A stretch of 64,000 bases of DNA, taken from the NCBI GenBank assembly GCA_015232315.1, contig JADFZZ010000004.1, forward strand, positions 239,414 through 303,413, read 5' to 3'. Each line of letters starts with the position of its first letter. Positions within the stretch are counted from its first letter, which is position 1. The notes below the pieces were generated by a model that had not been told where the DNA came from, made no database searches, and was given only the letters and a program-made list of their open reading frames with translations. This document shows positions 5,036 through 63,346 of the stretch, piece by piece. A program made the position numbers and the translations under genes. The stretch comes from SAR324 cluster bacterium (lineage in GTDB: Bacteria > SAR324 > NAC60-12).

Positions 5036-7267
5036 CTACTTGGGTGCGCCAGCATCAATCCATGCGGCTACCCTGGCTAGTTTAGCATCATCCAGATATG
5101 GTCCACCTAATGGCATTTGAGGTGTCGCTTTTCCAGTAATTCTTTTATACATATAACTATCTGCGCTTTTTCCCGGAGCAATGATTTTATCGCCAGTAGT
5201 ACTGGTTTTTCCATTGGTCACAATGGTATCATATTGATCCGCTTCCCATGACAAACCAGCCGCTGGTGAAGTTTTTCCATGACAGCTTGTACAGACCTTA
5301 AGGATTTCACTCTGGATTGTGGTCCAGGTGTCTTTGGCAGTGCTTGTTGATGTACTGCCGGAACTGGTACTGGTTGAAGTGCTGCTTGAACTGGTACTGG
5401 TTGCGGTTTTTGGCGCACCAGCATCAATCCATGATTTGATTTTATCAATGGTTGTTTGTTCCAGATAAGGTCCACCAAGCGGCATTCTACTTCCGCTTAT
5501 GGTGGGTTCTCCTGTTAATTTCTGATACAAATAACTGTTGGCACTGTCACTGGGCTTAATCAGGAGAACACCGGATGAACCTTTTTTACCATTGGTCACA
5601 ATGGCGTCATATTGATCTTTCTGCCATGACAAACCTGCGGCAGGTGATGCGCCACCGTGACAGGTCACACATTTAGTTTGCAACACATCCGCCTGAATAG
5701 AATCCCAGGAAGCTGATGGCGCACTGGTGCTGCCACCCTTACTGCTGCCGACTCCAGCACCATCATCAATCCATTGTCCGATCAGGGATATAAATGTTTC
5801 GTCCAGTACAACTCCAAGTCCTGGCATACGGCTACCCTTGATTTGAGCATTTCCGGTAATTTTCAGATATAAATAACTTTTTTCCTTGCTTCCGGGTTCC
5901 ACCAGTTTGAGGGAGGTCACTTCTGAACTTAATTTTCCACTGGTAACAATGGCGTCATATTGATCCGCCTCCCAGGATAATCCGGCATAGGAGAACACGC
6001 TGTTGTGACAGATCACACAGTAGTTTTCAAAAACAGCACTTTGAATGAAATCCCAGTTGGGTTCCATCGGCCCCGGAGCGCCCACATCAATCCATTGTTT
6101 AATCAGAGCGATATCATTGTCACTCAATGGACCGCCCATCGCAGGCATTTGTACGCCCTTGATATTGGCGTCTCCTGTAATTTTCATATAGATGTAACTT
6201 CCATCACTGTTTCCAGGATTTACAATTGGAATTCTGGTGGAACTCAGTCGTTTGTTCACAACAACGTTTGTGTACTGATCCGCTTCCAGAGACATGCCAC
6301 CCATCGGAAATTCACCACTATGGCAAATCACGCAATATTTCGCGAAAATATTGGCCTGAACATATTCCCAGGTAGCTTCCCTGGATGAATCAGAACCGGA
6401 TGTTGATGTTCCAGAATCAGAGCTTGAAGAGTCATCAGCCGTCTTGTTGGTCGTAGATTTTTCCAGAGCGCCATCATCAATCCATTTGGCAACCATCTTC
6501 AGTGTCTCATCATCGAGAATTTCTCCTGTGGCAGGCATCCTGCTTCCAGAAATGCGTGAGTCACCGGAAATCTTCATATAAAAATAACTGTCTTTGCTGT
6601 TTTTGGGATCAATGATTTTAAATGTATTTTCTGAGTTCATTTTCCCATTTGTTACAATCGTCGCATATTCACTATCAGCCCATGAAAGACCTGCTGTCGC
6701 ATTGGCTTCATTGTGACACTGAACGCATTTTTTCTGCAAAAGATTTTCCTGAAGATACGCCCAGTCGACCTCAACTTCCCCGCTTTCTGTTTCTGATTCC
6801 ACAGCGGTTTCACCTTCGGCGACTTCTAAGGCACCAGCATCAATCCAGGCACCGATAATATCAATGCTGCCTTGAGCCAGTTGACCACCTAACGGCATTT
6901 GAGCGCCAACGATATTGGCATTGTTGGTTATTTTCATGTATGCGTAGCTTTTGCTTTTATCGCCCGGTTCAATGATTTTGAATTCAGGATTGCCCTGGCT
7001 CATTTTCCCATCGGTTACAATTTCCTTATATTTACCAGCCTCCCATGACAACCCCGCCGCAGGAGATCCGCCAGAATGGCATGTTGTACATTTCTGGGAA
7101 AGAATATCAGCCTGGATTGATTTCCAGCTTGGTCCAGAACTGCTTTTTTTCTTACCCTCAGTTTCGGCGCAACCATAAAGACTCAGAATGACGGTTGCCA
7201 TAACAAACAACGCGAACAAGGAATTCAATGTTTGATTTTTTACGGAATGGAAACTTATAGTAGTCAT
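5036..7267 (-). CDS. lipoprotein with six cytochrome c-type haem-binding repeats
   Basis: The protein (743 residues from ATG 7267) starts with a lipoprotein signal ending ILSLYGC (lipidated Cys33). It then has six repeats of roughly 105 residues. Each has the pattern W..IQ, a CxxCH haem motif (CTTCH, CVQCH, CVICH, CVICH, CVTCH, CTSCH), GLSWEADQYD..IVTNGK, SYLYMKITG, a RMPLGG-type motif that could supply the distal Met ligand, and WIDAGA. Ser/Thr-rich linkers separate the last repeats. It is therefore likely a six-haem electron carrier on the outer face of a membrane. The ATG at 7267 was preferred to upstream starts because AAGGATGG precedes it and the signal peptide then begins normally. It follows the dihaem cytochrome gene by 13 bases. 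A four-repeat relative lies at 59312-60886. Confidence 0.85.
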   Translation of the reverse strand: MTTISFHSVKNQTLNSLFALFVMATVILSLYGCAETEGKKKSSSGPSWKSIQADILSQKCTTCHSGGSPAAGLSWEAGKYKEIVTDGKMSQGNPEFKIIEPGDKSKSYAYMKITNNANIVGAQMPLGGQLAQGSIDIIGAWIDAGALEVAEGETAVESETESGEVEVDWAYLQENLLQKKCVQCHNEANATAGLSWADSEYATIVTNGKMNSENTFKIIDPKNSKDSYFYMKISGDSRISGSRMPATGEILDDETLKMVAKWIDDGALEKSTTNKTADDSSSSDSGTSTSGSDSSREATWEYVQANIFAKYCVICHSGEFPMGGMSLEADQYTNVVVNKRLSSTRIPIVNPGNSDGSYIYMKITGDANIKGVQMPAMGGPLSDNDIALIKQWIDVGAPGPMEPNWDFIQSAVFENYCVICHNSVFSYAGLSWEADQYDAIVTSGKLSSEVTSLKLVEPGSKEKSYLYLKITGNAQIKGSRMPGLGVVLDETFISLIGQWIDDGAGVGSSKGGSTSAPSASWDSIQADVLQTKCVTCHGGASPAAGLSWQKDQYDAIVTNGKKGSSGVLLIKPSDSANSYLYQKLTGEPTISGSRMPLGGPYLEQTTIDKIKSWIDAGAPKTATSTSSSSTSTSTSSGSTSTSTAKDTWTTIQSEILKVCTSCHGKTSPAAGLSWEADQYDTIVTNGKTSTTGDKIIAPGKSADSYMYKRITGKATPQMPLGGPYLDDAKLARVAAWIDAGAPK

Positions 7268-7280
7268 ATCAGCCATCCTT

Positions 7281-8294
7281 TTATTTATAGTATTGATCAT
7301 AAACTTTCCCGGTAGGTTCTTCCTGAAAAACCGTATAGTTGAAACCTTTACGGTTATCACCTAAAGAAAGAACATAGTCTACCAGATGCCATCGTTCTTC
7401 TTCAGTGGTCTGGTCAATGAATGTTGGCATGAAGGTTCCATTTAATCCTGTTGTGATTGAGCGGTATAGGTCTCTGGGGGTTGAACCGCTTTTGTAATAA
7501 CCTTTGGTGAAATCCCAAGGTTTGGTTTCCATATAATAAGCAGCGATACCATCGCCTTCCCCAGTTTCACCGTGACACAAATAACAGCCCTTTTCGTTGT
7601 AAAGAATTTTCCCTAATCCAGGATTTTTACCTCTGCCTGAAGAAGGCCTTGTTTTGGGAATAGTCACGAGATTTGTTCCTTCAGGTTTTAATTCAGGATC
7701 GTTAAACTTGTGTGAAAATGATTTGATATACTGAATCACCGCCATTCTTTTTTGTTTGGAAATGATATTCCCAAATGGAACCATTTCAGATCCGGAAACT
7801 CCGTCTCTGATCGTACGGTCCAGATCTTCATCAGTCGGCATGGTGCCATGAAGAGTGGATCTCCAGCGAAACTCACCTTTGGTAAAATCACGTGGCGCCG
7901 GATCAAGCCTTTTTCCGCCATGTCCCTTACCATCGCCATTAATTCCGTGACAGCTTTTGCAGGCTGACAAATATATTTGTCGACCAAGGATCAGTTGTGC
8001 ATCAGAACTTGAACTCATCACTGATTGGGAATTCTGTTTGTTTTGAATTTGTGTCAGGTCCTCCTTCAAAGACTGAATTTCCTGTTTCAATTCCTCAATC
8101 TCAGCGATATTCGATTGATTCACCTTCTGAGATTGAGCCATTTGCTGTAACTCAACAATCTGCTGTTTCAGAATCAATAGTTCATTGTCCAGAGAATCTG
8201 AAGGCATCACGGACGGTTCTTGTGCTAATGCCGGAAACATAAAAACTCCCAGACACAAGTTAACACTGATCAATAATTTCAAACAATTTTTCAT
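7281..8294 (-). CDS. periplasmic dihaem cytochrome c with N-terminal coiled coil
   Basis: The 337-residue protein has a signal peptide cleaved near PALAQ (about residue 25) and a Gln/Glu/Lys-rich coiled coil (about 36-90). Two cytochrome c domains follow with CKSCH (112-116) and CYLCH (237-241). After each haem motif comes a similar stretch (PAPRDFTKGEFRWRST and KPWDFTKGYYKSGST), showing an internal duplication. Later methionines (MVPFG, FMPTF) are candidate axial ligands. It is first in a two-gene unit with the six-haem lipoprotein and has a near-consensus sigma54 promoter just upstream. An electron-transfer role is clear from the motifs, but partners are unknown. Confidence 0.85.
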   Translation of the reverse strand: MKNCLKLLISVNLCLGVFMFPALAQEPSVMPSDSLDNELLILKQQIVELQQMAQSQKVNQSNIAEIEELKQEIQSLKEDLTQIQNKQNSQSVMSSSSDAQLILGRQIYLSACKSCHGINGDGKGHGGKRLDPAPRDFTKGEFRWRSTLHGTMPTDEDLDRTIRDGVSGSEMVPFGNIISKQKRMAVIQYIKSFSHKFNDPELKPEGTNLVTIPKTRPSSGRGKNPGLGKILYNEKGCYLCHGETGEGDGIAAYYMETKPWDFTKGYYKSGSTPRDLYRSITTGLNGTFMPTFIDQTTEEERWHLVDYVLSLGDNRKGFNYTVFQEEPTGKVYDQYYK

Positions 8295-47889: not shown

Positions 47890-48546
47890 TTAATAATTCA
47901 GTTTATCCTTTTTTTCACGTCCTTTGCGGGTGGGAATTTTGCTTGACGGGGTGTCTTTACTGAATTGAAATTCACGGGGACCGGTAATGGTATTTCCCTG
48001 AATGTTGATTTTATCAATTTGAGGAGGGGTTGTTGTCAAATTATGGCGAACCTCGACCTGATAAACACCATCCGGAACATTCTTGATGCTGAAATTATAT
48101 TGTTCATCCAGATAGGTGTAAAATGGGGTGTTGACGACCCAGACAGCCATATACATGTTTTGGTGGATGTTGCAAAATACCTCCACAACACCCACTTCAT
48201 TGAATTTTACAATCGGTTCATCACCTTCATCCAGCAATCCCAGATCAAATCGCCTGATTTTGCTCATGGACCAGGCATTATGTTTTACCTCATCGTCATT
48301 TGAAAAATTGACGGAACTGCCCTGGGGGACAATCAGTAATGGCGGACGAAATATTTTCCCTTTCTGGGATATGGCAATGGATTGCGGTGTGACAGATGTA
48401 TTTTTTTCTGGAACTAAAACAATGCCAAAATCCTGATAGGCATATTCTGTTATGATCTTTCCAGTGTAATCCGCGGCATACAAAGATGTGAATATTCCGG
48501 CCTGTAATAACGCAATTGTCAGAAATATTTTAATATTCATCCGCAT
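47890..48546 (-). CDS. periplasmic cupredoxin-like protein
   Basis: The 218-residue protein has a signal peptide (cleaved near SLYA, residue 24) and a cupredoxin-like fold. The full type 1 copper ligand set is visible: His89 (DEVKHNAWS) and Cys125, His128 and Met131 in VFCNIHQNM. After the copper site comes a short beta-rich segment (IKNVPDGVYQVEVRHN) like the domains seen in methylamine-utilisation-type proteins. A Lys-rich tail ends the protein. It starts one base after the previous gene ends, so the two are cotranslated. It likely carries electrons in the periplasm. Confidence 0.82.
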   Translation of the reverse strand: MRMNIKIFLTIALLQAGIFTSLYAADYTGKIITEYAYQDFGIVLVPEKNTSVTPQSIAISQKGKIFRPPLLIVPQGSSVNFSNDDEVKHNAWSMSKIRRFDLGLLDEGDEPIVKFNEVGVVEVFCNIHQNMYMAVWVVNTPFYTYLDEQYNFSIKNVPDGVYQVEVRHNLTTTPPQIDKINIQGNTITGPREFQFSKDTPSSKIPTRKGREKKDKLNY

Positions 48547-48547
48547 A

Positions 48548-49012
48548 TCATTTTATTGTATTGGGGTTAATGACAATCTGAACCTTTCCTCTCATTTCTT
48601 CATGTCCGGGAAGGTAACATGTGATATCAAAATTAGATCCGGGTTTTTTTGGTGTGAAATACCATTCAATATGGTTATCAGGAAATATAATGAACTTGCA
48701 AACTGAACCTTCAAACATTTCCGCAACAGGGTATTTCTCAAAGTCAAGAACGACAATTTTGTGAGTTGTTACAGAATCCTCCATATATTTTGAACAAAAA
48801 ACATGCTTCAGTCTGCCGGAATTTTTCATGACAAGTTTATAAAGTTTTTCTGTTTCAAAAACGAGAAGATCAGGACTGTACACAAATTCATTATCCGTCG
48901 TGCTGACACTGAGATCAACAGGGATAGCATTCATATAATCGATTTTTTCAGAGGCTTCGATTCCGGGATGTATCAAAAATATTAAAACAATTAATCCAAA
49001 AATATATTTCAT
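48548..49012 (-). CDS. small periplasmic cupredoxin-like protein
   Basis: The 154-residue protein has a signal peptide (to about residue 20). It has a cupredoxin core with His70 (RLKHVF) and Cys132, His137 and Met140 in TCYLPGHEEM, a classical type 1 copper loop. It is homologous to the next upstream protein (49176-49694): both share FET.K.YKLV..N.., KH.F, and WYF.P.K.G...D..C. It is followed without a gap by the larger cupredoxin gene. A role as periplasmic electron shuttle or copper carrier is inferred. Confidence 0.82.
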   Translation of the reverse strand: MKYIFGLIVLIFLIHPGIEASEKIDYMNAIPVDLSVSTTDNEFVYSPDLLVFETEKLYKLVMKNSGRLKHVFCSKYMEDSVTTHKIVVLDFEKYPVAEMFEGSVCKFIIFPDNHIEWYFTPKKPGSNFDITCYLPGHEEMRGKVQIVINPNTIK

Positions 49013-49175: not shown

Positions 49176-49694
49176 TTAATACACTTCGTATGACATGGTC
49201 ATACCAAGATCCGCATGAGATTTGCCGACATTTTTCCCATCACTTTCCGTAATGTGGCAGTGGACATCGTTTCCTTTGCCGGTTTTAACCGGAACAAAAT
49301 ACCAATCCGTTTTGGTCATAGGTGCGATTTCTATTTCAGTGACATTTCCTTTTACCTCGGCGGCCCATCCATCCATGACCTCCAACCCTTTGAACACGTG
49401 AACTTTCCGGGTAAAAACCAACCGGGCAAGACTGTAGGATGTGAAATAATGTTTTTGTTTACTTTTATTCAATAAAACCAGTTTATAGGCTTTACCTGTT
49501 TCAAACTTCAAAAGTTTGGGGTTCTCACAATCAATACAGTTGAAAACATAATCACCCTTCTCATTGCTGATTTCAACCGTGATTTTATTGATATCTGTTT
49601 CAGTCAAATCGCCTTTTGCCCACAGGTTCTGCCCCAGAATGATCAGAAAAAACATTGCTAAAGATATTTTGAAATAAATATTCAGGGCCTTCAT
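49176..49694 (-). CDS. cupredoxin-like protein with enlarged copper loop
   Basis: The 172-residue protein has a signal peptide (cleaved near NLWA, residue 26) and the same fold as the 154-residue neighbour. The loop is unusual: Cys146 is followed directly by His147, and the next candidate ligands are His160 and Met165. The usual short Cys-to-His-to-Met spacing is thus stretched by about eight residues. His82 (KQKHYF) would be the other ligand. A further pair, Cys53/Cys56 (CIDC), is in the N-terminal part. It may bind copper differently or have lost the type 1 site. It is first in a three-gene cupredoxin row. Confidence 0.72.
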   Translation of the reverse strand: MKALNIYFKISLAMFFLIILGQNLWAKGDLTETDINKITVEISNEKGDYVFNCIDCENPKLLKFETGKAYKLVLLNKSKQKHYFTSYSLARLVFTRKVHVFKGLEVMDGWAAEVKGNVTEIEIAPMTKTDWYFVPVKTGKGNDVHCHITESDGKNVGKSHADLGMTMSYEVY

Positions 49695-49818: not shown

Positions 49819-50421
49819 TCATTGGAGAGTGCTTTGTTCTGTCTCAGGTTCTTCAAAAAAAAGATCTTCGCATTCAATCTCCTGACTACAACGGTTCTCA
49901 ACCTGATATTTGAAATGTTCATAGTCTTCGAGTACCAGATCAGGATGTTCACCGTTGAACAGTCGAAGTTGCAAATTACCACAATTAACAGCTTCATTCG
50001 TATCATTCCTCAAGGTACTCCAGCATTGTTCATCCATGTCATTGTGAATTTTCATAAAAACTCTCTTTGCTTCAGATGAGAGCGAATTAGTACTTTGGGA
50101 GGGGGCCAGATATTCAGGTGAGTATAATCTTGAAAAAACCTCGCGCGTATTCCGATAATTGTGGCCTTCTTCATTCATCACCTGCTGATAGACTTTGCAG
50201 CGGATACAATGAGCTATTTTTTCAGAAAAAGGGTCAATGTTACGTCCACGACATCTGGAGTCAGCAATTGCCCAGCATGCCCGCCCCCCGTTTTTACCTC
50301 CATTTATGCCATTCGTTGTTGTGGTCAGCGGGATAGGGCAGGGTTCCCTGTGAGACAGTCGTCCCCCCGGTTCTCGACCACATTGTTTGATTTCCCAACA
50401 ATTCATTTTTATGGAAGACAT
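49819..50421 (-). CDS. two-CW domain protein, long form
   Basis: The first 90 residues match the protein at 30209-30568: NCWEIKQCGREPGG, then NGGKNGGRACWAIADSRC and CIRCKVYQQV. A further 110 acidic residues lack a recognised domain. GGAGC precedes ATG 50421. The Cys-rich part suggests metal binding. It lies between the cytochrome c4-like gene and the cupredoxin genes on the same strand, so a link to redox biology is possible but not shown. Confidence 0.75.
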   Translation of the reverse strand: MSSIKMNCWEIKQCGREPGGRLSHREPCPIPLTTTTNGINGGKNGGRACWAIADSRCRGRNIDPFSEKIAHCIRCKVYQQVMNEEGHNYRNTREVFSRLYSPEYLAPSQSTNSLSSEAKRVFMKIHNDMDEQCWSTLRNDTNEAVNCGNLQLRLFNGEHPDLVLEDYEHFKYQVENRCSQEIECEDLFFEEPETEQSTLQ

Positions 50422-51042: not shown

Positions 51043-51672
51043 TTATTTCAGTGTATTGACATAGCTTGCGACATTGATGAGTTCCTGTTCACTGGCAAGT
51101 GCCTGTGACATTGGACGCATTTGCGCTCCAGTGGAATCCTGTGGATGAGCACCTCGAATTCCTGCTCTGAAATTCTGAAGCTGGCGAACGACATACCAGT
51201 CATGCTGTCCTGTCAGTCGTGGGGCGTTTACTGCCTGATTTCCTTCACCATTCGGTCCGTGGCAACCTGCGCACAGCGCGAATTTGGCTTTACCGCCAGC
51301 AATATCACCTTTCACTGTTGCTGGAGAATCAGCGGGAACCAGCGAAGAAATATAAGCGGCGACATCATTGACAGCCTGATCATTGGCCAATGTCATTGCC
51401 ATGGGGCGCATTTGAGCACCATAAGTGTCCTGAGCATGAGCGCCTCGAATGCCAGCCTTGAAATTGTTCAATTGCCGAACGACATACCATTCTTCCTGTC
51501 CAGCAAGAGCGGGTGCATTTAACGCTGTATTTCCAGCCGCTTTATCGCCATGACAGCCAACGCATACCGCATAAAGAGTTTTTCCCGCATTGGGGTTGCC
51601 CGCGGCCATAACACTGGTTCCAACAGAAATGACTGACAAAAGTGTCAATCCTGTGATGATGATTTTTTTCAT
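51043..51672 (-). CDS. periplasmic dihaem cytochrome c (c4-like)
   Basis: The 209-residue protein has a signal peptide (cleaved near VMAAG, residue 24) and two similar cytochrome c domains with CVGCH (37-41) and CAGCH (134-138). Each is followed by the same pattern, NAP.L.GQ..WYVVRQL.NF.AGIRGAH..D..GAQMRPM. The Met of AQMRPM is the likely axial ligand. This duplicated layout is that of cytochrome c4, an electron donor to terminal oxidases or other periplasmic partners. A perfect palindrome sits about 42 bases upstream and a terminator follows. The cupredoxin cluster and the haem-barrel protein are its neighbours. Confidence 0.92.
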   Translation of the reverse strand: MKKIIITGLTLLSVISVGTSVMAAGNPNAGKTLYAVCVGCHGDKAAGNTALNAPALAGQEEWYVVRQLNNFKAGIRGAHAQDTYGAQMRPMAMTLANDQAVNDVAAYISSLVPADSPATVKGDIAGGKAKFALCAGCHGPNGEGNQAVNAPRLTGQHDWYVVRQLQNFRAGIRGAHPQDSTGAQMRPMSQALASEQELINVASYVNTLK

Positions 51673-51862: not shown

Positions 51863-53017
51863 TCAGAAAATTAGATGCAGTTCTGTGAACAATAGTTTGA
51901 GATTAGCCGCGGTGTTTTCAGAAGGCCCGCTATAGTTGCGATATCCCGTGCGTATCTGGAAGAATTGGGTCAGAAATGGTTCATAAGCAATGCTCATTCG
52001 GGCTTCAGTGTCGTCTTCTTCATTAATATTCGGATCATGAAAATCATAAGTCAGCTTTAGATTCGCGCCTTTATACAGCATCACATTCAATTCCAGAAAA
52101 CCTACCTGTTTTTCCAGTTTTGGAGAGCCATCCTGATCTTCCTCAATTTTGTCAACTTGTGCCAGACCCGTCAACCGGCCCGCATTGAATCCGGCGAAAA
52201 TGTTCATGACATGTTTGGAAGATTCAGATTTTTTAACAGATTGTGAAAATCCGATCATTCCGGGTTCTCCAATCATATATCCATAAAAACTGGTTTGCTT
52301 GTCAATTTCCGTTCCACCATTGGTTACGGCGAGACTGAAAGAAAAGGGTCCCGGTTCCACACCAACTTCAAAACCTTCATCCGATAACCCGTAAGTGAAT
52401 CCTGAAACGGCGCGAACATAGGCGTCATCATCCTGTAACCTGAAACCGGAAGGTAAAAACATACGTCCGACTTTCAGATACGCGTCATATTCTGTTCCAC
52501 GAAACATCGCGAAGTTTTCACGGATGTTGGCAACATCCGACTGATCAACATAGAGAAACGCCTGATCAGGAATAAAATCTATCCGGTAATACAGTAATGT
52601 TTTGCTTAATTTAAAACCGTGAGTCTTATCCTGCCCAGGTTCTTCAAGATATCTAAGTTCTGCACGGATATCACCCCCGATAGAGAAAAAATCATTCACA
52701 TTCCCGTTATACAAGTTTTGTTGGGGCGGTATTTCTTCAGGTTGCTCTTCTTTCTTCTTTTTCTGAGCGGAACTTAATTCTTCCTCAACAGGCTCGGTCT
52801 GATCTCCGGGAGAAGCCCATTGAACAAAATATTGAGGCAATCGGGTCTGAACATAAATATTGCCGAAATCGGTTCTTTTGCCGCCACCGGTGATGTTGAC
52901 ATGGCATTTGGAACATTTATAACCTTCTCTGATGGCGATATAGGGTTCAGCCCACAAGATGCTACAAAAATAGATGTTAACAGCACTGATAATCAGGAGA
53001 GAGACCTTCAGTTTCAT
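51863..53017 (-). CDS. outer-membrane barrel protein with N-terminal haem c motif
   Basis: The 384-residue protein has a signal peptide (cleaved near ILWA, residue 23). Close to the mature N-terminus is a single CSKCH haem motif (35-39) in REGYKCSKCHVNITGGG. A charged, Lys/Glu/Pro-rich linker follows (about 70-105), then about 270 residues of alternating beta-strands ending in Phe (HLIF), typical of an outer-membrane barrel. A haem domain fused to a porin is the architecture of Cyc2-type proteins, which move electrons across the outer membrane. The sequence around the haem differs from classic Cyc2, so I propose a related but distinct family. It lies next to periplasmic cytochrome and cupredoxin genes. 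Confidence 0.75.
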   Translation of the reverse strand: MKLKVSLLIISAVNIYFCSILWAEPYIAIREGYKCSKCHVNITGGGKRTDFGNIYVQTRLPQYFVQWASPGDQTEPVEEELSSAQKKKKEEQPEEIPPQQNLYNGNVNDFFSIGGDIRAELRYLEEPGQDKTHGFKLSKTLLYYRIDFIPDQAFLYVDQSDVANIRENFAMFRGTEYDAYLKVGRMFLPSGFRLQDDDAYVRAVSGFTYGLSDEGFEVGVEPGPFSFSLAVTNGGTEIDKQTSFYGYMIGEPGMIGFSQSVKKSESSKHVMNIFAGFNAGRLTGLAQVDKIEEDQDGSPKLEKQVGFLELNVMLYKGANLKLTYDFHDPNINEEDDTEARMSIAYEPFLTQFFQIRTGYRNYSGPSENTAANLKLLFTELHLIF

Positions 53018-53037: not shown

Positions 53038-54009
53038 TTATCTCAGTTCCATGGTATTCCATGCACTCATTTCCTTATTTTCAAGACTCTGATACTGGAT
53101 CATCAATCTGGAAATGAAATCATCCAGAATTTGCAATGGAAGACGGTCAAGTATTTGGCGCTCCGCATCAATAACGCCCCTGGAATCAAACGTTCGAAGA
53201 TCGCGCAGATCTGCGCTGAGGCCCGTGGATATGTGTGTCAAAGGCCTGTATTCTTCATAAAGATCTGCTTTGAGACTGCTCATAACGGGGATTGACGATT
53301 TGTTCAACCGGTCTTTAGTGCGTGTCACATCTCTAAGCCAATATTTAAAATATTCATTTCGATAGGCCAGATACAAAGGCAGTCCCTGGTGCCCCAGCAT
53401 CACATGAATTAAATCCGAATATTGATTCATGATTTGATGATAGGGTTTGCTATTATCATGAAACAACAAATCTGTTTTGTGAAAACTCAGCATTGACAGA
53501 TTCCTGGGGGAAAGCTTTCGATTGGAATACTGTGGGAGGTTGGGTGGAATTAATTGAATTATCAGATGATTTAACGCATCCAACATGGATTTTAACGCAT
53601 TTCCAACTTGTTGATGCATCTGTTCTGAAACAAAAATGTGCGGAGTTTGTGTCAGTTGTTCAACCGCAAGATTGGTAGAACTGATTTTTTTCAATAATTT
53701 ACGAAACGTTTGCTCCTTATGTTGTGTTCCTCCTTTAAACAATTTTTTGATAAAATCCAGAAAACCCGTTACTGTTGAAAAAAACGAATATTGATGCGCG
53801 ACGACTCTTCTGGCATCGTCTGACATGGATTGAAAAGATTCATCCAATTTTCTGCAAAGCTGGATTGAAGCGTTACTGCTTTCTGTATCCAGTCCTATCC
53901 CTGTTTTCTGGATAGACTGAATCACTTCATGAATCTTCCCGGAAGATGGAAGGTCACGTGTTTTGGAAACAGGATGGCTTTCAGTGGTAAATCTAAGATT
54001 TTGAAGCAT
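53038..54009 (-). CDS. uncharacterised soluble protein upstream of the haem-barrel gene
   Basis: The 323-residue protein has no signal peptide or membrane segment and appears helical. No catalytic motif or family was recognised. It precedes the haem-barrel gene by 20 bases on the same strand, so they are probably cotranscribed. The ATG at 54009 was chosen over a GTG at 54018 because it is the stronger codon; the ribosome-binding site is weak either way. It could be an assembly or regulatory partner, which is only inferred from position. Confidence 0.7.
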   Translation of the reverse strand: MLQNLRFTTESHPVSKTRDLPSSGKIHEVIQSIQKTGIGLDTESSNASIQLCRKLDESFQSMSDDARRVVAHQYSFFSTVTGFLDFIKKLFKGGTQHKEQTFRKLLKKISSTNLAVEQLTQTPHIFVSEQMHQQVGNALKSMLDALNHLIIQLIPPNLPQYSNRKLSPRNLSMLSFHKTDLLFHDNSKPYHQIMNQYSDLIHVMLGHQGLPLYLAYRNEYFKYWLRDVTRTKDRLNKSSIPVMSSLKADLYEEYRPLTHISTGLSADLRDLRTFDSRGVIDAERQILDRLPLQILDDFISRLMIQYQSLENKEMSAWNTMELR

Positions 54010-54411
54010 ATCACGCACTCAGCTTATTAAATACTAATTCAATATAATCATGATTTTATGTATGGATGGCATTAATCTGCAACAAAAATGCCATGATTTT
54101 TTTAATGACATCATGCCATGTTTGAGAATTATGAGGGAAACATAAACGCCGAAAAATCGGCTTTAACCATTACAGGCGGATGTCCTGAAGATTGGCGGGC
54201 GGGGTTTCAATATGAAAAACCGGATGTCAGCCGAAAAACCGGCACAATAGACGACTTGTCGGCGATAATGAAGAATTATGCTCTGAAAGTGCCTGTTCCG
54301 CAGGCATAAAAGTAAATATTTGTCCTCAAGCTATCTCATGCGAGAGATAAATATCTCAATATTTCTACAAGTTAAAAACAGACTCCATTTTTAAGGTCAG
54401 GTAATTGCAGT

Positions 54412-55488: not shown

Positions 55489-57726
55489 ATGAAAAATCTG
55501 ACTGTTATTCAGAAATTTTCACTGTTATTTTTGGTGACCCTGATTCTGTTTGGGATTCTGTCGATCGGGGTGCTCAACTATGTGGTTGAAACCAATATGG
55601 TCAGACATGCTCAATTTGCTTTGGCCAGGTCCATTTCCCTGCACATCAAGACAGAATTTCGCAAGGAAGAGTTGTTTCTGAATGGTGGTTCTACTTCAGA
55701 AAAAATCTCGATAAAGATGAAACATTTCATGCTTGATCATAATGTGGATCGAGTGAAAGTCTGGAGTCGTGACAGTGTCATTCTCTGGTCAGATCAGTCT
55801 GATTTGATCGGACAGGCTTTTCCGGATAACGATGAACTTGAGGAAGCACTGGCGGGAGAGATTGTTGCTGAAATGAAGCATCCGGAAAAAACTGAACATG
55901 TCCATGAAACAGAATATGTGAAAATCATCGAATTGTATGTCCCGATACAATTTGACTCAATAAATGTCGATTTTGTTTTTGAAGTCTATCAGGATGTCGG
56001 TTATTTGTTTGATGAAATCGCGTTGACTCAAAAAATTATATGGTCCTCAATCATTGTCGGTTTTTCAATCATTTATATGATTTTTTTCCCATTGATGTGG
56101 CAAACTTCAAAACGACTCCGTCAACAAACGGAGCAGATTGTCAAATCAGAACAAAAATACCGTAGTCTGTTTGAACTTGGAGGTGATGCGGTCATTATCA
56201 GCCAGCTTTCCGGCAAAATCATCGAAACCAATCAAGTGTGTTCCCAACTGTTGGGATACTCTCATGAAGAGCTTTCCGTCATGAATATTTTCGATTTAAT
56301 CGACGAAAAAAAACGTGCTGAGTATCAAAATAAAATTAAAGATATCGTCGCAAACCAACCGTTGATCCAGGAACACCGTTTTTCAGGAAAAGCCGGAGAA
56401 ATACTGGATGTGGAAATCAGCAGTCACCTGATTGAGCATGAGGAACAGAAGGTATTACAGAGCTTTATTCGAGATATCCGGGAACGTAAAAACGCTGAAA
56501 ACACCGCAAAAATGTATATGCGCCAGCAATCGCTGATCGCGACACTTGGCGGGGAAGCTCTTTCTGGCACAAAACCTGATGACCTTATTTCAATGGCGAC
56601 CAAATATGTTTTAACTGGACTTGATGTGGATTGTTGCTGGGTTCTAAGGCCACATCCCGTGGATAATGAAACTTTTCGGATGTCTGTCGGTGCTGGTTTC
56701 GTCTGCTCAAAAAATGAGTTGATACATGTGCAGAACTCCATGGCGCAATACACGCTGAAAGAAAAAACTGTCGTTATTTCAGACAATATCCAGACAGACC
56801 CCCGCTTTAATACAAATTCCACGTTGTGTCATAAAATGATTGGGGGCATCAGTGTTCCTATTTATGGAAGGGAGAATAATCCTTATGGGGTGTTGTGTGT
56901 ATGCACAGGAAACCCCAATCGAAAATTCACCGAATTTGATACATTTTTCGTGTTTTCGGTCGCAAACCTTCTGGCTACGGCTATCGCCAGAAAACAGGCT
57001 GAAAATGATAGTCTCATGAATGAAAGAATCGCATCCTACCATGAGCGACAGTCAAGAATCGGTGTGATTGTGGCAGGGGTGGCTCATACCATGCGCAATC
57101 CCGTGCATGGAGCGATCAATTGTCTCGATATTCTGAAGCGGAGACTGAATGGCGAGGATCAGGATTCACAGGAAATTTTTGAAATGGTCATTGAAGCTCT
57201 GGATCGTATAGAAAGAATCACTCAGCGTCTGCTACTGTTCTCTCGAGAATCAGTTACAGAGAAATCCATGATAAACATTGTCGATAATGTAGAAGATGTT
57301 CTGGCTTCAGGCCTCCAGAAAGACGCTACACAAAAACAGATCCTCATTCATATTGAGTCTCCAGAAGTGCCCTCAGTGTACCTTGACCCCAAATATTTCA
57401 AGGAGATTCTCCATCATTTGCTGGAAAACGCGGTCGAAGCCTGCCTGGAAGGTGACAAAATTCATATCCGGTTTGCGTTGGATCTAAACAAAAATCTCTT
57501 CACTATTTTTGTAGAAGACACGGGAAAAGGTATCTCACCAGAGGATCTATCCAAGGTCACGGAACCTTTCTATACTACAAAATCCATTGCGGATGGTAGT
57601 GGTTTGGGGTTGGCCATTGTTCAGCAAATAGTTGAAGAACAGGGAGGCACACTGAATATTCAGAGTATTTTAGGTGAAGGGACAACCGTGATAGTGGTTA
57701 TTCCTGTTTCTTTTGATAAAAATTAA
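55489..57726 (+). CDS. membrane sensor histidine kinase with PAS and GAF domains
   Basis: The 745-residue kinase has membrane segments (about 9-31 and 184-203) around a periplasmic sensor. PAS (about 222-335) and GAF (about 360-500) domains follow, with a cysteine pair at 382-383 and further cysteines at 406, 447, 470 and 472. The kinase core has His533 in AGVAHTMRNPVHG, ENAVEACL, EDTGKGIS and GSGLGLAI. The H-box is very like that of the nitrate/nitrite-type kinase at 10029-12794, so the two are paralogues. No response regulator is adjacent. Its stop codon lies within the 8-bp target duplication of the element that follows. Confidence 0.9.
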   Translation: MKNLTVIQKFSLLFLVTLILFGILSIGVLNYVVETNMVRHAQFALARSISLHIKTEFRKEELFLNGGSTSEKISIKMKHFMLDHNVDRVKVWSRDSVILWSDQSDLIGQAFPDNDELEEALAGEIVAEMKHPEKTEHVHETEYVKIIELYVPIQFDSINVDFVFEVYQDVGYLFDEIALTQKIIWSSIIVGFSIIYMIFFPLMWQTSKRLRQQTEQIVKSEQKYRSLFELGGDAVIISQLSGKIIETNQVCSQLLGYSHEELSVMNIFDLIDEKKRAEYQNKIKDIVANQPLIQEHRFSGKAGEILDVEISSHLIEHEEQKVLQSFIRDIRERKNAENTAKMYMRQQSLIATLGGEALSGTKPDDLISMATKYVLTGLDVDCCWVLRPHPVDNETFRMSVGAGFVCSKNELIHVQNSMAQYTLKEKTVVISDNIQTDPRFNTNSTLCHKMIGGISVPIYGRENNPYGVLCVCTGNPNRKFTEFDTFFVFSVANLLATAIARKQAENDSLMNERIASYHERQSRIGVIVAGVAHTMRNPVHGAINCLDILKRRLNGEDQDSQEIFEMVIEALDRIERITQRLLLFSRESVTEKSMINIVDNVEDVLASGLQKDATQKQILIHIESPEVPSVYLDPKYFKEILHHLLENAVEACLEGDKIHIRFALDLNKNLFTIFVEDTGKGISPEDLSKVTEPFYTTKSIADGSGLGLAIVQQIVEEQGGTLNIQSILGEGTTVIVVIPVSFDKN

Positions 57727-57727
57727 A

Positions 57728-57844
57728 GTAAGCGTTCAGTCGTCAGCTATCAGTTTTCAATAATTCTCAAGGCATGGCAACCAAACGATATTTTCTGCTA
57801 TGGAGTCATAATGCTTCTGAAGCGCATAAACACTGAACGCTTAC
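57728..57844. mobile_element. 117-bp MITE with 13-bp inverted ends and 8-bp target duplication
   Basis: GTAAGCGTTCAGT (57728-57740) and ACTGAACGCTTAC (57832-57844) are perfect inverted ends. AAATTAAA flanks both sides (57720-57727 and 57845-57852), a perfect 8-bp target duplication. The left copy includes the stop codon of the kinase gene, which remains intact. A decayed relative is at 3821-3952. There is no coding content, so it depends on a transposase elsewhere. Confidence 0.85.
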
Positions 57845-57902
57845 AAATTAAATGTTGGTTCCATAAAGTGTCAATTCCGCTCCACAACTTGAAAAAGGGA
57901 TT

Positions 57903-59027
57903 ATGTATCAGGAAGAACAACTCAGAAGTTTTGGTGATATCGTCATGAGATTGATCCGTCGGGAAAATCTTTCTCGTCAAGAAGCCCGTGAAGGTTGGAT
58001 GCATATCATCCAGAACACACAACCTGACCTGCAACAGGGAGCTTTCATGGCGGCTCTTGTTGCCAAAGGGGAGACGTTTGAGGAAGTTGCGGGAAGTTGG
58101 GATGCCATTTATGAATTTGATACCAACAAAGTCGATCTGAGTCATATTGATCCATTGGTTGAAAATTGCGGAACCGGAATGGATACACTGAAAACGTTCA
58201 ATATCAGCACAGGGGCTTCTATCATTGCGGCGGCTAATGGTGTTTCCATGGCAAAGCATGGAGCCAGATCCATTACATCCAAATGCGGCACGGTTGATGT
58301 TCTGGAACATCTGGGCGTTGATGTTGAATGTGATCTCAATTGTGTCAAACACAGCATTGAACAGGCCGGGATAGGCATTTTCAACGGTATGAGCGCCAAA
58401 GTCCACCCCTCGGCATTAGGACGGATTCTGTCCCAGATCCGTTTTGGTTCGACGCTTAATATCTCTGGTTCTCTCGCTCATCCTGCCAACCCCCGTTATG
58501 CGCTTCGCGGAGTGTTTTCTCCTACAATTCTGAATCATACCATTGAAACCATGAGAGAGATCGGATACAGAAAAGCCATGGTCGTTTACGGATGGAATGA
58601 CAAAAAAACCAAGGGTATAGACGAAATCTCGACTTTTGGAATCACAGAAGTTCGTGAACTTCATGAAAATGGAGCCATAGAATCCTATGAAATCACTCCG
58701 GAAGATTTTGGTATCAAACGACCTTCGTTTGACAAGATCGCATCCACCGGAACAGTGATCGGGGATGCGCAGGAATTATTAAAAACACTGCTGGGGCGAG
58801 CCAGTAACGCAAAACGCAATATTATGTGCCTGAACGCGGCTCCAATCATATATATCGCTGGAAAAGCCAAAGATCTCAAACAGGGGTATCAAATGGCACA
58901 GGAAACTCTGGCAAGAGGACTTGCTGTTGAAAAACTTCAGGAATGGGTATTGACCCAGACCAGAAATCGCATGAAAAGCGAAGAACAATTCCATGCAACC
59001 CTGGGTGAGATTCAGATCCCGATGTAA
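57903..59027 (+). CDS. trpD: anthranilate phosphoribosyltransferase family protein (TrpD-like)
   Basis: The 374-residue product has the family's N-terminal helical domain and the phosphoribosyl pyrophosphate loop CGTGMDTLKTFNIST (89-103, usual GTGGD..TFNIST). KHGARSITSKCGTVDVLE (118-135, usual KHGNRS.SSK.GSADVLE) and HPSALGRILSQIRFGSTLNI follow, with GIDEIS and PEDFG later. Canonical TrpD joins PRPP and anthranilate in tryptophan synthesis. The Asn of KHGNR is Ala and one Gly of GTGGD is Met here. No other trp gene is nearby, so a different aromatic substrate (a TrpD2-like role) is possible. It stands alone after a MITE. Confidence 0.8.
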   Translation: MYQEEQLRSFGDIVMRLIRRENLSRQEAREGWMHIIQNTQPDLQQGAFMAALVAKGETFEEVAGSWDAIYEFDTNKVDLSHIDPLVENCGTGMDTLKTFNISTGASIIAAANGVSMAKHGARSITSKCGTVDVLEHLGVDVECDLNCVKHSIEQAGIGIFNGMSAKVHPSALGRILSQIRFGSTLNISGSLAHPANPRYALRGVFSPTILNHTIETMREIGYRKAMVVYGWNDKKTKGIDEISTFGITEVRELHENGAIESYEITPEDFGIKRPSFDKIASTGTVIGDAQELLKTLLGRASNAKRNIMCLNAAPIIYIAGKAKDLKQGYQMAQETLARGLAVEKLQEWVLTQTRNRMKSEEQFHATLGEIQIPM

Positions 59028-59056
59028 AGCATATCTCGCCACGATTCCATCAAAAT

Positions 59057-59081
59057 GGGATATTGCGCTGATCAATATCCC
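59057..59081. terminator. hairpin after the TrpD-family gene
   Basis: GGGATATTG (59057-59065) and CAATATCCC (59073-59081) make a perfect 9-bp stem with a 7-base loop, 30 bases after the stop codon. No U-tract follows closely, so terminator function is uncertain. Confidence 0.45.
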
Positions 59082-59311
59082 GATGGATCAATCCTCATTT
59101 TATCCTGTATTTCTGACGAAATCCCGGTGACAACTGACGAAATCTCGTCATCCCCCAAGGAGTACAACCGCAAGATTTACTAACATAGTGAATAATTAAA
59201 CACTTGTTTTTGTTGTGTAATAATTTTTGTTTCAGTGTAGCACGGATAAGGCATGAGGCGTGAAGGAGGAATATCAGACTTTGTAACCAATTAAACATTC
59301 GAGAGGTGATC

Positions 59312-60886
59312 ATGAAAACAGATATCAAACTATTCCTGGTTATTCTGATAATGATTATTTCAGTGGTTTCATGTTCTGATATCGAAGGAACAGGCATGAA
59401 GAAAAACTCAAAAAGTGCCACAACAGGGATGGAAACCACTACGACAGAAACCAATATTGAGACAACAAAGGATAAGGAACCTATCAGCGGAATATCATGG
59501 GAAAAAATATATGCGGCGTTTCTTTCAAAAAACTGTGTGAGTTGTCACAATGACGCATCACCAGCATCAGGTCTTTCATGGACTCTGGAAAGTTATGACG
59601 CGATCGTGACTGCTCAGCGGAAAAGCTCAACCACGGAAGACCTGATTGTAAAACCTTTTGATCCGGAAAACAGTTTTGTCATTAAAAAACTCAAAGGTCT
59701 GGATGGTGTTTCAAGGATGCCTCTTGGTGGTCCTTATCTGGAAGAGGTGGCAATTCAATACTTTGAAATGTGGATTGCTGACGGCGCCTTGAGAGAATCA
59801 GCGCTTCCCACGGAATTACAGGCAGAGGATACACCATTGAGTGATGAAACCGCCGCTGGCGTAGTGGCTCCATCCATAGCCGCGGAACCTACTTGGGATT
59901 ACATTACAAAATATGTGTTGGGACCGGGTTGTCAGATGTGTCATTCTAACAGTTTCAATTACAAAAACCTATCCTGGTCTGCTGATCGATATGATGACAT
60001 TGTGGCCAGAGGAAGAAGAAGCTCGGAAGTCTCAGAATTAAAAATTGTCGAGCCTTTCAATAAAGATAAAAGTTATTTGTATCTCAAGCTGATCGGCAGC
60101 GACATCAAGGGTAGTAAAATGCCCGGATTGGGAATTGCGCTGCCCGGCAGTGAAATCGAAAACATCGGCAAATGGATTGATAACGGCGCTTTGCCTTCTG
60201 TGGAATATGTTTCATGGGATGCCATTGAACAATCCATTCTACGCAATAACTGCTCTGGATGCCATAATAAGAATCTGAAAAATGGAGACCTGAATCTCGA
60301 CTTTAACAGTTATAAAGAAATTGTGACCAATGGAAAGAAAAGTTCTTCAGGAATAAAAATTGTTGAAGTTGGAAACAAGGAACAGAGTATGTTGTATAAA
60401 AAAATTAAAGGTGAAGCAGGGAAACGCATGCCTTTGGGGTCGGCCTTGTCAGATGAAAGCATCAATCTGATAGGTACATGGATTGATAATGGCGCGAAAA
60501 AACTGAAAGTAACGGATTCATCCGGATCGCTTTCTGGTATTGAAATCCCGAAAGATGTGGAAGCAACAATAGAAATCAATTCTCAATTGTTCGTATGGAG
60601 TGATATTCAAAAAGAAATATTTCAAAAACGTTGTGTTGTTTGTCATAACGCGACAACACCTGCCTCAAAGCTGAGTTGGACGGCAGATCAATATGAAACA
60701 GTGCTTTATAAACAAAGTGCTACGGGCGAACTTTTGATCAAGCGTGGAGATGGTATCTCGAGTTACCTTGTTAAAAAACTCAAAGGCATGGGGTCTGGAA
60801 ACCGGATGCCATTAGGAGGACCCTATTTAACTGAAGACGAACTCAATAAGATCGTTCTTTGGATTGATAGCGGTGCCAACGAATAA
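59312..60886 (+). CDS. lipoprotein with four cytochrome c-type haem-binding repeats
   Basis: The 524-residue protein has a lipoprotein signal (MIISVVSC) and a Thr/Lys-rich linker. Four repeats follow with CVSCH, CQMCH, CSGCH and CVVCH, each with the GLSW..D.YD.IV..G, SYL..K..G, MPLGG and WID.GA elements seen in the six-repeat protein at 5036-7267. Each repeat probably binds one haem c with Met from the MPLGG-type motif (MPGLG in repeat 2) as second ligand. It is an extracytoplasmic electron carrier by inference. ATG 59312 has AGAGG upstream. A clear terminator follows. No partner genes are adjacent. Confidence 0.85.
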   Translation: MKTDIKLFLVILIMIISVVSCSDIEGTGMKKNSKSATTGMETTTTETNIETTKDKEPISGISWEKIYAAFLSKNCVSCHNDASPASGLSWTLESYDAIVTAQRKSSTTEDLIVKPFDPENSFVIKKLKGLDGVSRMPLGGPYLEEVAIQYFEMWIADGALRESALPTELQAEDTPLSDETAAGVVAPSIAAEPTWDYITKYVLGPGCQMCHSNSFNYKNLSWSADRYDDIVARGRRSSEVSELKIVEPFNKDKSYLYLKLIGSDIKGSKMPGLGIALPGSEIENIGKWIDNGALPSVEYVSWDAIEQSILRNNCSGCHNKNLKNGDLNLDFNSYKEIVTNGKKSSSGIKIVEVGNKEQSMLYKKIKGEAGKRMPLGSALSDESINLIGTWIDNGAKKLKVTDSSGSLSGIEIPKDVEATIEINSQLFVWSDIQKEIFQKRCVVCHNATTPASKLSWTADQYETVLYKQSATGELLIKRGDGISSYLVKKLKGMGSGNRMPLGGPYLTEDELNKIVLWIDSGANE

Positions 60887-60901
60887 ACATGAATTCATCT
60901 T

Positions 60902-60933
60902 CAGGGATGATTCTATTATCATCCCTGTTTCTC
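60902..60933 (+). terminator. rho-independent terminator after the four-haem lipoprotein
   Basis: CAGGGATGAT (60902-60911) and ATCATCCCTG (60918-60927) form a perfect 10-bp stem with a 6-base loop, followed by TTTCTC. It lies 15 bases after the stop codon. Confidence 0.85.
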
Positions 60934-61081
60934 ACATATCGTCAATACCTGACATGCCTTTATTTCCCCTAAATTCCCCAAAAAATACCAGGATCGAATT
61001 ATCTATAGTTCTCCAGAAAAATATCCAGCAAGTATTCCCCCTTTTTCTAAAGTGATTCAGGTGGATGTTGCCGAATAATTT

Positions 61082-61294
61082 TTATGGAATACGATAAAAC
61101 CCTGTCTGAACAAACTCTGAAAGAGCCCTTGACTCATCCAAAGGTAATTTATCGTGTCGAGATCTTGGAATCAGTCGAAACCCATGGATTTCTTGTTTTC
61201 GATTCAAAATGACACATTTGCTTTTTTGATAAACTGACCAAAATTTTGATTTATCCTCACGAAGCAAAATATATCCTTGATTATCCATATCCAT
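61082..61294 (-). CDS. possible small protein, 70 residues
   Basis: A minus-strand frame opens at ATG 61294 and gives a charged 70-residue peptide (GYILLREDKSKFWSVYQKSK in its first half) with balanced composition. The ribosome-binding site is poor and no family was recognised. It occupies a 550-bp spacer that otherwise has no gene, which is the main reason to list it. Confidence 0.3.
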   Translation of the reverse strand: MDMDNQGYILLREDKSKFWSVYQKSKCVILNRKQEIHGFRLIPRSRHDKLPLDESRALSEFVQTGFYRIP

Positions 61295-61441
61295 TTTTTT
61301 TAACTATCAGGATAACCATCTCAATGAATTCAAAGGCTACCCACTTAACCGGGACAATATTTATTTAATTTGGGATTTTCGATAAGTCAGTTGTTGATTT
61401 TGAGGAAAGCATGGTTTTACCAGATTGCAATCAAGTTGAGT

Positions 61442-63346
61442 ATGATATTTAAAAAATTAAACTTTATAAGTGCTAAGGAATTTGTGACACCCAGGTATTC
61501 ATTCCTGGTGATTGTCGGAACCACCTTTCTGGCTGAGGCTCTGGTCATGATCATGTTCAGATTCTGGCCGCCAGCACCCTGGATGGAAGTCTTCATTGAC
61601 GCATGTATTCTATCAATAGTAATGTGGGGGTGTCTTCATTATTTCCTTATCAGACCTCTTGATAATCATCTCATCCATTATAAAAATCTGGTTGAACAAC
61701 TGAGCAAGCGTGACGCATTGGCCAGATCCCTGGATTATACCGGTGACGGGTTGATGATCACAGATCTGAATGAAATAATTATTTACGCGAATCCATCCCT
61801 TGAATCCATGACCGGTTACAGCGCACAGGAATTACTTGGAAAAACATCCCGCATGCTCAACAGTGATCGGCAAAATACTGAAATCTATCAGGATCTCCTG
61901 AAAACGGTTTCAGGTGGCCAATGCTGGAGGAATGAAACGATATCCCAACGGAAAAATGGTTCTCGATTTTATGCGGATGTCACTGTTTCACCTGTGTTCA
62001 ATCAGTCGGGGGATATCACACATTTTTCCACCATCATGCGGGATGTTACGGAAAAACATGAAATGGAAGCCCGTCTGCTTGCAGCTCAGAAGTTGGAAGT
62101 TATTGGTATCCTTTCTGCTGGAGTGGCTCATAATTTCAACAATCTGCTGAATATCATTGCCGGTGCCATTGCTATCATGTCAGAGGAACCCAACCATTCC
62201 GAACGTGATGTAAAAATGCTGGATCTCGTCCAGAAAACGGTGACACGTGGATCCAGACTGGTTAAACAGATCATGGTATTAGGCGGTACAACAAAAAATT
62301 TGATGGTGATCAACCTGTCAGAATACCTGCGACAGGAAGCTGACAGGCTCAGCATGATCATTCCAAAATCAGTTCAATTGAAAGTCAATATCCAGACCGA
62401 AAACATTTTTATCAAAATGGATTCCGGGCAAATTTCTGAAATTCTGCTGAATCTTTGCCTTAACGCTGTTCATGCCATGGACACAACAGGAGGAACGCTT
62501 GAAATTATTCTCCAGGGCATGCCGCAAACCAGTCAGGATTTTGGTGATAACGATCCTGCCTGGAAATACGGTCAACTCCAATGCGCGCGTTTGAGTTTGA
62601 GTGATACCGGATGCGGAATACCTCCTGAAACGCTAAATAGAATTTTTGAGCCTTTTTTTACCACAAAAGAAACCGGGAATGGCTCTGGTCTGGGGCTTTC
62701 GGTCGTTCAGGGACTGATCGAGGCTAATAAAGGACAAATCTCTGTCAGCAGCGAGGTTGGTAAGGGAACCACGTTTGACCTTTATTTTCCTACGACCAGT
62801 GAACTTCCTTTGAAAAATATGGAGCGTTCAGAAGACATGGTAAGATCGCCTATCCTTACAGCCATACAGGCCCAGTCATTGTTTGAGAATAAAACTGTGG
62901 CTCCTTCAGATGTTTTATCAATGGAATCTTCACATCAATCCCCTGAAACGGTGTTGGGAATTGAGCAGATCCATCCTGAAAAACGCTACGTACTGATAGC
63001 GGAGGATGAACCCGTTCTCATCGAAATATATAAAGCTATGCTGAAAAAAAAAGGAGTTCCTGTGATCGTGTGTGGAGACGGAGAGAAAGCGTTTCAAACC
63101 TGGAAGGATAATCCCGAGAAATTTTCCCTGGTTATTACGGATTATGCCATGCCCAACATGAATGGTGCCCAACTGGCAATAAACCTTCATCAACATGCGC
63201 CGGATCTGCCTATTCTCATGGTTACAGGCTATGGTGACGCATTCAGTCAAAAAGAACTGGATGCTTGGGGAATCCGTGAATGTTTGTCCAAACCCGTCAA
63301 TTTTAAAATGCTCATTGATCTGATTCGTCAATATCAGGAGCAATAA
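61442..63346 (+). CDS. membrane hybrid histidine kinase with PAS and C-terminal receiver
   Basis: From ATG 61442 the protein has 634 residues: two membrane segments (about 20-40 and 50-70) with a very short external loop, and a PAS domain (about 95-205, GYSAQELLGKTSRMLNS). The kinase core has His230 in GVAHNFNNLLN, LNLCLNAVHAM, SDTGCGIP and GSGLGLSV. A receiver follows (about 515-632) with phospho-acceptor Asp567 (ITDYAMPNMNG) and SKPV. The near lack of an external domain suggests sensing within the membrane or through PAS. The start is uncertain; an upstream TTG would add 24 residues. No regulator partner is adjacent. Confidence 0.88.
   Translation: MIFKKLNFISAKEFVTPRYSFLVIVGTTFLAEALVMIMFRFWPPAPWMEVFIDACILSIVMWGCLHYFLIRPLDNHLIHYKNLVEQLSKRDALARSLDYTGDGLMITDLNEIIIYANPSLESMTGYSAQELLGKTSRMLNSDRQNTEIYQDLLKTVSGGQCWRNETISQRKNGSRFYADVTVSPVFNQSGDITHFSTIMRDVTEKHEMEARLLAAQKLEVIGILSAGVAHNFNNLLNIIAGAIAIMSEEPNHSERDVKMLDLVQKTVTRGSRLVKQIMVLGGTTKNLMVINLSEYLRQEADRLSMIIPKSVQLKVNIQTENIFIKMDSGQISEILLNLCLNAVHAMDTTGGTLEIILQGMPQTSQDFGDNDPAWKYGQLQCARLSLSDTGCGIPPETLNRIFEPFFTTKETGNGSGLGLSVVQGLIEANKGQISVSSEVGKGTTFDLYFPTTSELPLKNMERSEDMVRSPILTAIQAQSLFENKTVAPSDVLSMESSHQSPETVLGIEQIHPEKRYVLIAEDEPVLIEIYKAMLKKKGVPVIVCGDGEKAFQTWKDNPEKFSLVITDYAMPNMNGAQLAINLHQHAPDLPILMVTGYGDAFSQKELDAWGIRECLSKPVNFKMLIDLIRQYQEQ

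Follow-up and report, generated by a model that had tools for sequence, protein, structure and literature searches.

One reading frame in a 64,000-nucleotide stretch of DNA from a SAR324 cluster bacterium (hereafter the window) joins a single haem-binding motif to a predicted outer-membrane barrel, and this raises the question whether its product belongs to Cyc2 and, if not, which role it might play. Cyc2 serves as marker gene when microbial Fe(II) oxidation is surveyed, and its motif is required in published screens. The family of this protein, called haem-porin here, and a sister clade from Marinimicrobia both fail this motif, and no Pfam or NCBIfam model covers them. Carriers of such motif-failing haem-porins include, among others, SAR324, Marinimicrobia, Myxococcota and Fibrobacterota. 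The genes of the window that are discussed below are listed in Table 1.

Table 1. Haem-porin gene and redox-related or adjoining genes of the window.
Feature	Position	Strand	Characteristics
Haem-porin	51863..53017	(-)	Signal peptide, monohaem plug CSKCH aa 35-39, charged linker ~aa 62-100, predicted 16-stranded barrel
326-aa protein	53038..54018	(-)	Directly upstream of haem-porin, 20-bp gap; position taken by c1 in relatives
c4-like dihaem cytochrome c, likely periplasmic electron carrier	51043..51672	(-)	PF00034 E 1.4e-26, two CxxCH
Two-CW domain protein	49819..50421	(-)	Between c4 and cupredoxin genes; NCBIfam NF045718 E 5.9e-25
Cupredoxin-like, candidate ligands H82, C146, H160	49176..49694	(-)	Weak ExtJ and Cupredoxin_1 match
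Cupredoxin-like, type-1 copper ligand pattern	48548..49012	(-)	Alignment with L025 homologue
Cupredoxin, family c3	47890..48546	(-)	H89, C125, H128 invariant; closest relative adjoins Cyc2 gene
Dihaem cytochrome c, family c2	7281..8294	(-)	47% identity to the L008 c2, operonic with haem-porin
Six tandem c1 haem domains	5036..7360	(-)	Partner family of haem-porin
Lipoprotein, four tandem c1 haem domains	59306..60886	(+)	Partner family of haem-porin

Sequence and Predicted Structure of the Haem-Porin

The reading frame starts with ATG, encodes 384 amino acids and contains AEPYIAIREGYKCSKCHVNITGGGKRTDFG. Its single CxxCH lies about 12 residues past a typical signal peptide. Searches against Pfam, NCBIfam and the sequences of the PDB gave no match for this protein and nothing consistent for the other members of the family. 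An AlphaFold2 model was obtained with an alignment of 24 sequences as input (mean pLDDT 83, pTM 0.79). In it, the haem motif is surrounded by short helices, a charged linker of low confidence follows and then come strands up to the last residues; 16 strands lie within residues 111-383, most of them at pLDDT >88. Compared with the PDB by Foldseek, the model is closest to the 16-stranded general porins 5mdq, 1e54 and 2fgq (best E 3.6e-12), and it has the antiparallel barrel and the terminal aromatic residue of this fold (F/Y in the family alignment).

The original prediction had read a Cyc2-type plan from the sequence, namely one CxxCH near the mature N-terminus followed by a barrel, and had named barrel prediction and structure modelling as the check. 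With the motif at residues 35-39, the 16 strands of the modelled barrel and the porins found by Foldseek, this plan is borne out. Since a barrel is combined with a signal peptide, the protein is probably located in the outer membrane, and a haem would be attached at its CxxCH. A second invariant His or Met, which could provide the axial sixth haem ligand, was not found across the 24-member family alignment. Promoter and terminator scans gave background level only.

Distribution and Conservation of the Family

A scan of species genomes revealed 29 haem-porin loci, all of them from uncultured or draft genomes. According to their record titles they belong to Lambdaproteobacteria (SAR324), Neomarinimicrobiota, Bacteroidetes, Calditrichaeota, Planctomycetota, Myxococcota, Fibrobacteres, Gemmatimonadota, Nitrospirae, Desulfobacterota-type Deltaproteobacteria and one Gammaproteobacterium. 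On the basis of its sequences, this is a previously unnamed and undescribed family of about ten bacterial phyla, and no literature on it in SAR324 or Marinimicrobia was found. A 2026 paper on Methylobacter reports an MtrAB-type complex and hence does not concern the haem-porin family. Within the set of 58 genomes around the host, the family is confined to three, and the host itself has one copy.

The 24 aligned members share a strongly conserved haem segment as well as the invariant charged or polar barrel residues R118, R166, K182, E217, D289 and N319. The CxxCH is invariant in 24/24 family members and in 23 members of the sister clade, and therefore it is not a chance occurrence.

Relation to Cyc2

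The family profile matches 70 of 245 Marinimicrobia genomes, and many of these matches represent a bridging subfamily with the motif AIPRFAVQNGxSCxxCHVNPTGxGLRNxYG, most members of which score with both the haem-porin and the Cyc2 profile. For comparison, Cyc2-type proteins were retrieved with a 37-aa query from the consensus of the Cyc2 haem region, in genomes carrying the haem-porin family. Against these proteins, which are Cyc2 by motif and length and not by assay, the profile-profile comparison of the haem-porin family gave a probability of 98.5% (E 3.8e-15, 317 columns), the haem segments alone 96.3% (E 1.6e-9) and the barrels alone 95.0% (E 3.9e-8), the E-values being those of single comparisons. 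Reversed or shuffled control profiles stayed at about 0.1%, and the haem segments of unrelated cytochromes reached 57-75% over only 10-14 columns. Porin_O_P (PF07396), which served as control in view of the likeness between Cyc2 models and phosphate porins, obtained an hhalign probability of about 4%, by which a Porin_O_P identity of the haem-porin is ruled out. The likeness to Cyc2 that had been suspected earlier thus takes the form of a remote homology, seen against negative controls and linked by a bridging subfamily.

The published motifs of Cyc2 are AXPXFAR[Q/K][T/Y] upstream of the CxxCH (PMC8406198) and PXL downstream of it. The upstream motif is present in 0/24 haem-porin members, which keep only A-x-P and a later A, and the downstream motif likewise in 0/24, with TGGG in its place; in the bridging proteins the motifs are missing as well (23/23). 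All 24 haem-porin members contain GxxCxxCHx[ND]xxG. The more relaxed CHx[NDS]xxG with a GxxC before it is found in these 24 and in the 23 bridging proteins, and its CH-side pattern in no Cyc2. In a maximum-likelihood tree of 59 proteins, 12 of them Cyc2, the haem-porin family, the bridging clade and Cyc2 each form one branch at 100% support, and the protein of the window groups with the SAR324 copies. Furthermore, a 10-sequence Cyc2 profile has no match in the host genome, the link being visible only by profile-profile comparison.

With Cyc2 (Keffer et al., 2021; PMC8406198) the haem-porin has in common the signal peptide, a short N-terminal plug with one CxxCH, a 16-stranded barrel and a C-terminal aromatic residue, and the remote homology extends across plug and barrel. 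The single CxxCH near the N-terminus and the fused barrel with at least 365 aa, as expected of Cyc2, are present in its 384 aa. In contrast to Cyc2, it carries EPYxAxRxGxKCSxCHVNxTGGGKR without the two published motifs, falls into a separate clade and pairs with a haem protein, c1, that the examined Cyc2 loci lack. Because the motif, clade and profile tests all fail, the haem-porin is not filed as Cyc2; judged by sequence, it represents a sister family. The suggestion that the deviating haem context marks a separate family agrees with the loss of both motifs in 24/24 members and with the fully resolved clades. Co-occurrence of Cyc2 was counted as 6/26 for family-bearing genomes (counting haem-bearing Cyc2 matches only) and as 4/58 for relatives, two counts that are suggestive only, as they rest on two different queries.

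The c1 Partner and the Gene Neighbourhoods

Partner families were defined by clustering the neighbourhoods of the haem-porin loci and by a domain model. What is new here is the near-constant c1 neighbour of the haem-porin. A c1-domain gene lies directly beside it on the same strand in 27/28 loci (25 upstream, 2 downstream), the sole locus without it being cut by a contig end, and beside the bridging-clade porin in 18/22 loci. It is found beside Cyc2 in 0/12 loci and beside Porin_O_P in 0/17 loci (in stretches spanning at least about 3 kb). The c1 model was built from haem-porin neighbours, so that the haem-porin and bridging counts are not blind, whereas the Cyc2 and Porin_O_P controls are.

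The c1 protein has an unusual haem domain and is usually a lipoprotein. In many members a lipobox precedes a CAGDGxxLD-like segment, and there is one C-x(n)-CH. Here, both Cys and the His are kept and the spacing varies, with n=2 in 26 cases, 3 in 8, 1 in 4, 4 in 4 and 5 in 1 (variants are found, for example, at L013:9207-9998, L020:8955-9917 and L012:2902-3375). This variation possibly reflects an unusual haem attachment or a loss of haem. The Planctomycete cytochrome C domain PSCyt1 (PF07635) matches the c1 domain in the tandem proteins of the window, whereas the scanned single-domain c1 proteins next to the haem-porin gave no or sub-threshold Pfam matches and have spacings of 1 to 5.

Dihaem c2 genes, located upstream, are present in most haem-porin loci, and cupredoxin and aa3 oxidase genes are often found as well. 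In the Marinimicrobia loci L013 and L014 the genes run as c2, c1, porin, c6, cupredoxin, Rrf2, CoxB, CoxA, CoxC, CtaA and CtaB, and L033 as well as L016 from Calditrichota contain much of this gene set. On a single contig, L022 (Marinimicrobia) combines a cupredoxin, Cyc2, a histidine-kinase-like gene, a regulator, an EB_dh protein, c2, c1 and the haem-porin. These arrangements resemble the rus operon of Acidithiobacillus, cyc2-cyc1-cup-coxBACD-rus-ctaTBA (PMC10654088), in that the Marinimicrobia and Calditrichota loci join a haem-porin, a dihaem cytochrome, a cupredoxin, an aa3 oxidase and genes of haem A/O synthesis. In contrast to the rus operon, the porin and the cytochrome are of other families, c1 is added and the cupredoxin is extended by a further C-terminal domain. 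In the window the corresponding genes are scattered, and none of the adjacent genes is a cox gene.

Two further types of neighbourhood were observed. The clusters of L031, L018 and L032 lie in an unusual oxidase environment, next to a cytochrome bd-like oxidase that is accompanied by EB_dh-domain cytochromes and by Usp, radical SAM and PCP_red-domain proteins. The bridging haem-porins of Marinimicrobia (AIPRFAV...CHVNPTGxGLRN; L087-L108, L120-L129) usually have a c1-type protein in the flank, and the porin is followed by a dihaem protein of about 125 aa resembling the cytochrome subunit of the photosynthetic reaction centre.

Redox Genes of the Window and the Host Genome

In the 326-aa protein that occupies the c1 position of the relatives, neither a c1 domain nor a CxxCH was found. 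The c1 and c2 genes of the window are not adjacent to the haem-porin, and the c2 gene together with the six-domain c1 gene lies 44 kb away. A search of the whole 5.25-Mb host genome gave 14 c1 matches, all on the contig of the window at 244,452-306,579. They belong to four genes with arrays of 6, 4, 2 and 2 domains, within 62 kb around the sole haem-porin, the two adjacent two-domain proteins lying just past the end of the window (L148:1272-4586, host contig). Such a concentration of every c1 gene and the only haem-porin in 62 kb out of 5.25 Mb argues that their products still work together.

Other redox genes near the haem-porin had been noted before. The c4-like cytochrome at 51043-51672 was confirmed by two Cytochrom_C stretches. 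For the three cupredoxin-like proteins the alignments keep the type-1 copper ligands H...C...H, but their Pfam matches are weak or absent. They had been proposed as part of a periplasmic relay, and the cupredoxin at 47890 is closest to the one directly before the Cyc2 gene in L022 (E 3.7e-29); the main partner, the c1 haem protein, had been missed, and the dihaem cytochrome and both tandem-haem proteins of Table 1 had been left out of the list.

The host genome encodes aa3-type and cbb3-type oxidases. RuBisCO was not found in it, and thus lithoautotrophy is not supported by that route. Elsewhere in the host, a multihaem island (L130, 45000-64900) contains a decahaem MtrC-like, a 12-haem and several 4-6-haem cytochromes together with NrfD and FeS subunits.

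The Two-Haem Variant

The porins of L009, L011 and L027, which belong to the same subclade as the haem-porin of the window, contain a second CxxCH. An AlphaFold2 model of the L009 protein displays 16 strands; residues 131-135, which form the second motif, belong to the loop that joins strands 1 and 2 (residues 116-141) and is modelled at low confidence. In porin topology this loop is extracellular. Downstream of the porin, all three loci have a gene with ten CxxCH, in L009 with OmcA/MtrC-like domains. The second CxxCH in loop 1 and the downstream decahaem gene suggest that this variant has haems at both barrel mouths.

The proposed task, passage of electrons across the outer membrane, is shared with MtrCAB, MtoAB and PioAB, and three relatives pair with OmcA/MtrC-like decahaems. 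The architecture differs, however, as the Mtr barrel has 26 strands (PMC8406198) and sheathes a separate decahaem. With 16 strands and a fused haem of its own, the haem-porin is ruled out as an MtrAB-type porin-cytochrome complex.

Proposed Function and Alternative Readings

From the computed family, fold and haem motif, the remote Cyc2 homology with its profile match and bridging clade, the c1 pairing and the association with c2 cytochromes, cupredoxins and Cox oxidases, we infer that the haem-porin transfers electrons. On this evidence from sequence and modelling, a role as conduit is held with good confidence, and the explanation as a whole, in which the haem-porin would be the outer-membrane element of a Cyc2-like electron conduit, can be called probable. 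The single c-type haem in the short N-terminal domain would plug the 16-stranded barrel from the periplasm. Electrons that arrive through the barrel or at it would reduce this plug haem and would then pass to the c1 haem lipoproteins, for the window the tandem arrays of 6, 4, 2 and 2, and from c1 via soluble dihaem cytochromes (c2, c4) and type-1 copper proteins to a terminal oxidase. Given that there is a conduit, the inward direction, from an external donor, possibly Fe(II), to O2, is favoured with some reserve because of the Cyc2 homology, the oxidase clusters and the aa3 and cbb3 oxidases of the host. Counted against this explanation are the missing RuBisCO, the decahaem pairing within the same subclade together with the decahaem/NrfD island of the host, and the non-adjacent c1 and c2 genes of the window.

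Alternatively, respiratory electrons might leave the cell through the same conduit: c2/c4 and c1 would deliver them to the plug haem, and multihaem cytochromes on the outside would take them up, with minerals, humics or partner cells as the final recipients. This is allowed by the decahaem OmcA/MtrC-like gene that follows the porin in L009, L011 and L027, by their second CxxCH in loop 1 and by the decahaem MtrC-like/NrfD/FeS island of the host. We nevertheless regard export as rather unlikely, as an inward flow is indicated by the Cyc2 homology and by clusters that include aa3 oxidase genes or Cyc2 itself, and the haem-porin of the window lacks a second haem and a decahaem neighbour. It is improbable that the protein is a divergent Cyc2 with the same Fe(II) oxidase function. 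Here, the full-length profile match and the common layout, strand number and plug position would fit, but both motifs are missing in 24/24 members, which have GxxCxxCHx[ND]xxG instead, the clade is separate at 100% support, the Cyc2 profile matches nothing in the host genome and the near-obligate c1 partner is missing from Cyc2 loci. Still less probable is a solute porin or redox sensor in which the haem gates or senses and does not conduct. The many sensor and chemotaxis genes of the window and the sensor-kinase relatives of a window protein in the L022 and L031 clusters would be in line with it, yet the near-universal pairing with electron-transfer proteins, in several loci with terminal oxidases, would be left unexplained. 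Finally, an incidental CxxCH that carries no haem is hardly credible, since C, C, H and the flanking residues are invariant in 47 proteins of two clades, signal-peptide proteins operonic with cytochromes.

Beyond the Cyc2-like conduit as such, these loci might represent a new conduit class, a near-obligate combination of haem-plugged 16-stranded porin and haem lipoprotein in about ten phyla and mostly Cyc2-less genomes, including a two-haem variant from which electrons pass straight to a surface decahaem cytochrome; we put this forward tentatively, at somewhat less than even chances. If the haem-porins are electron-conducting, the range of ocean and subsurface organisms with a capacity for electron exchange with metals or minerals would widen, and the haem lipoprotein partner would provide a way to approach how a single-haem porin hands its electron onward.

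By eye, the window is also densely filled with chemotaxis, histidine kinase, cyclase and GGDEF genes, which lie among the redox genes at 8642-48000 and 55489-63346 and possibly serve redox or energy taxis.
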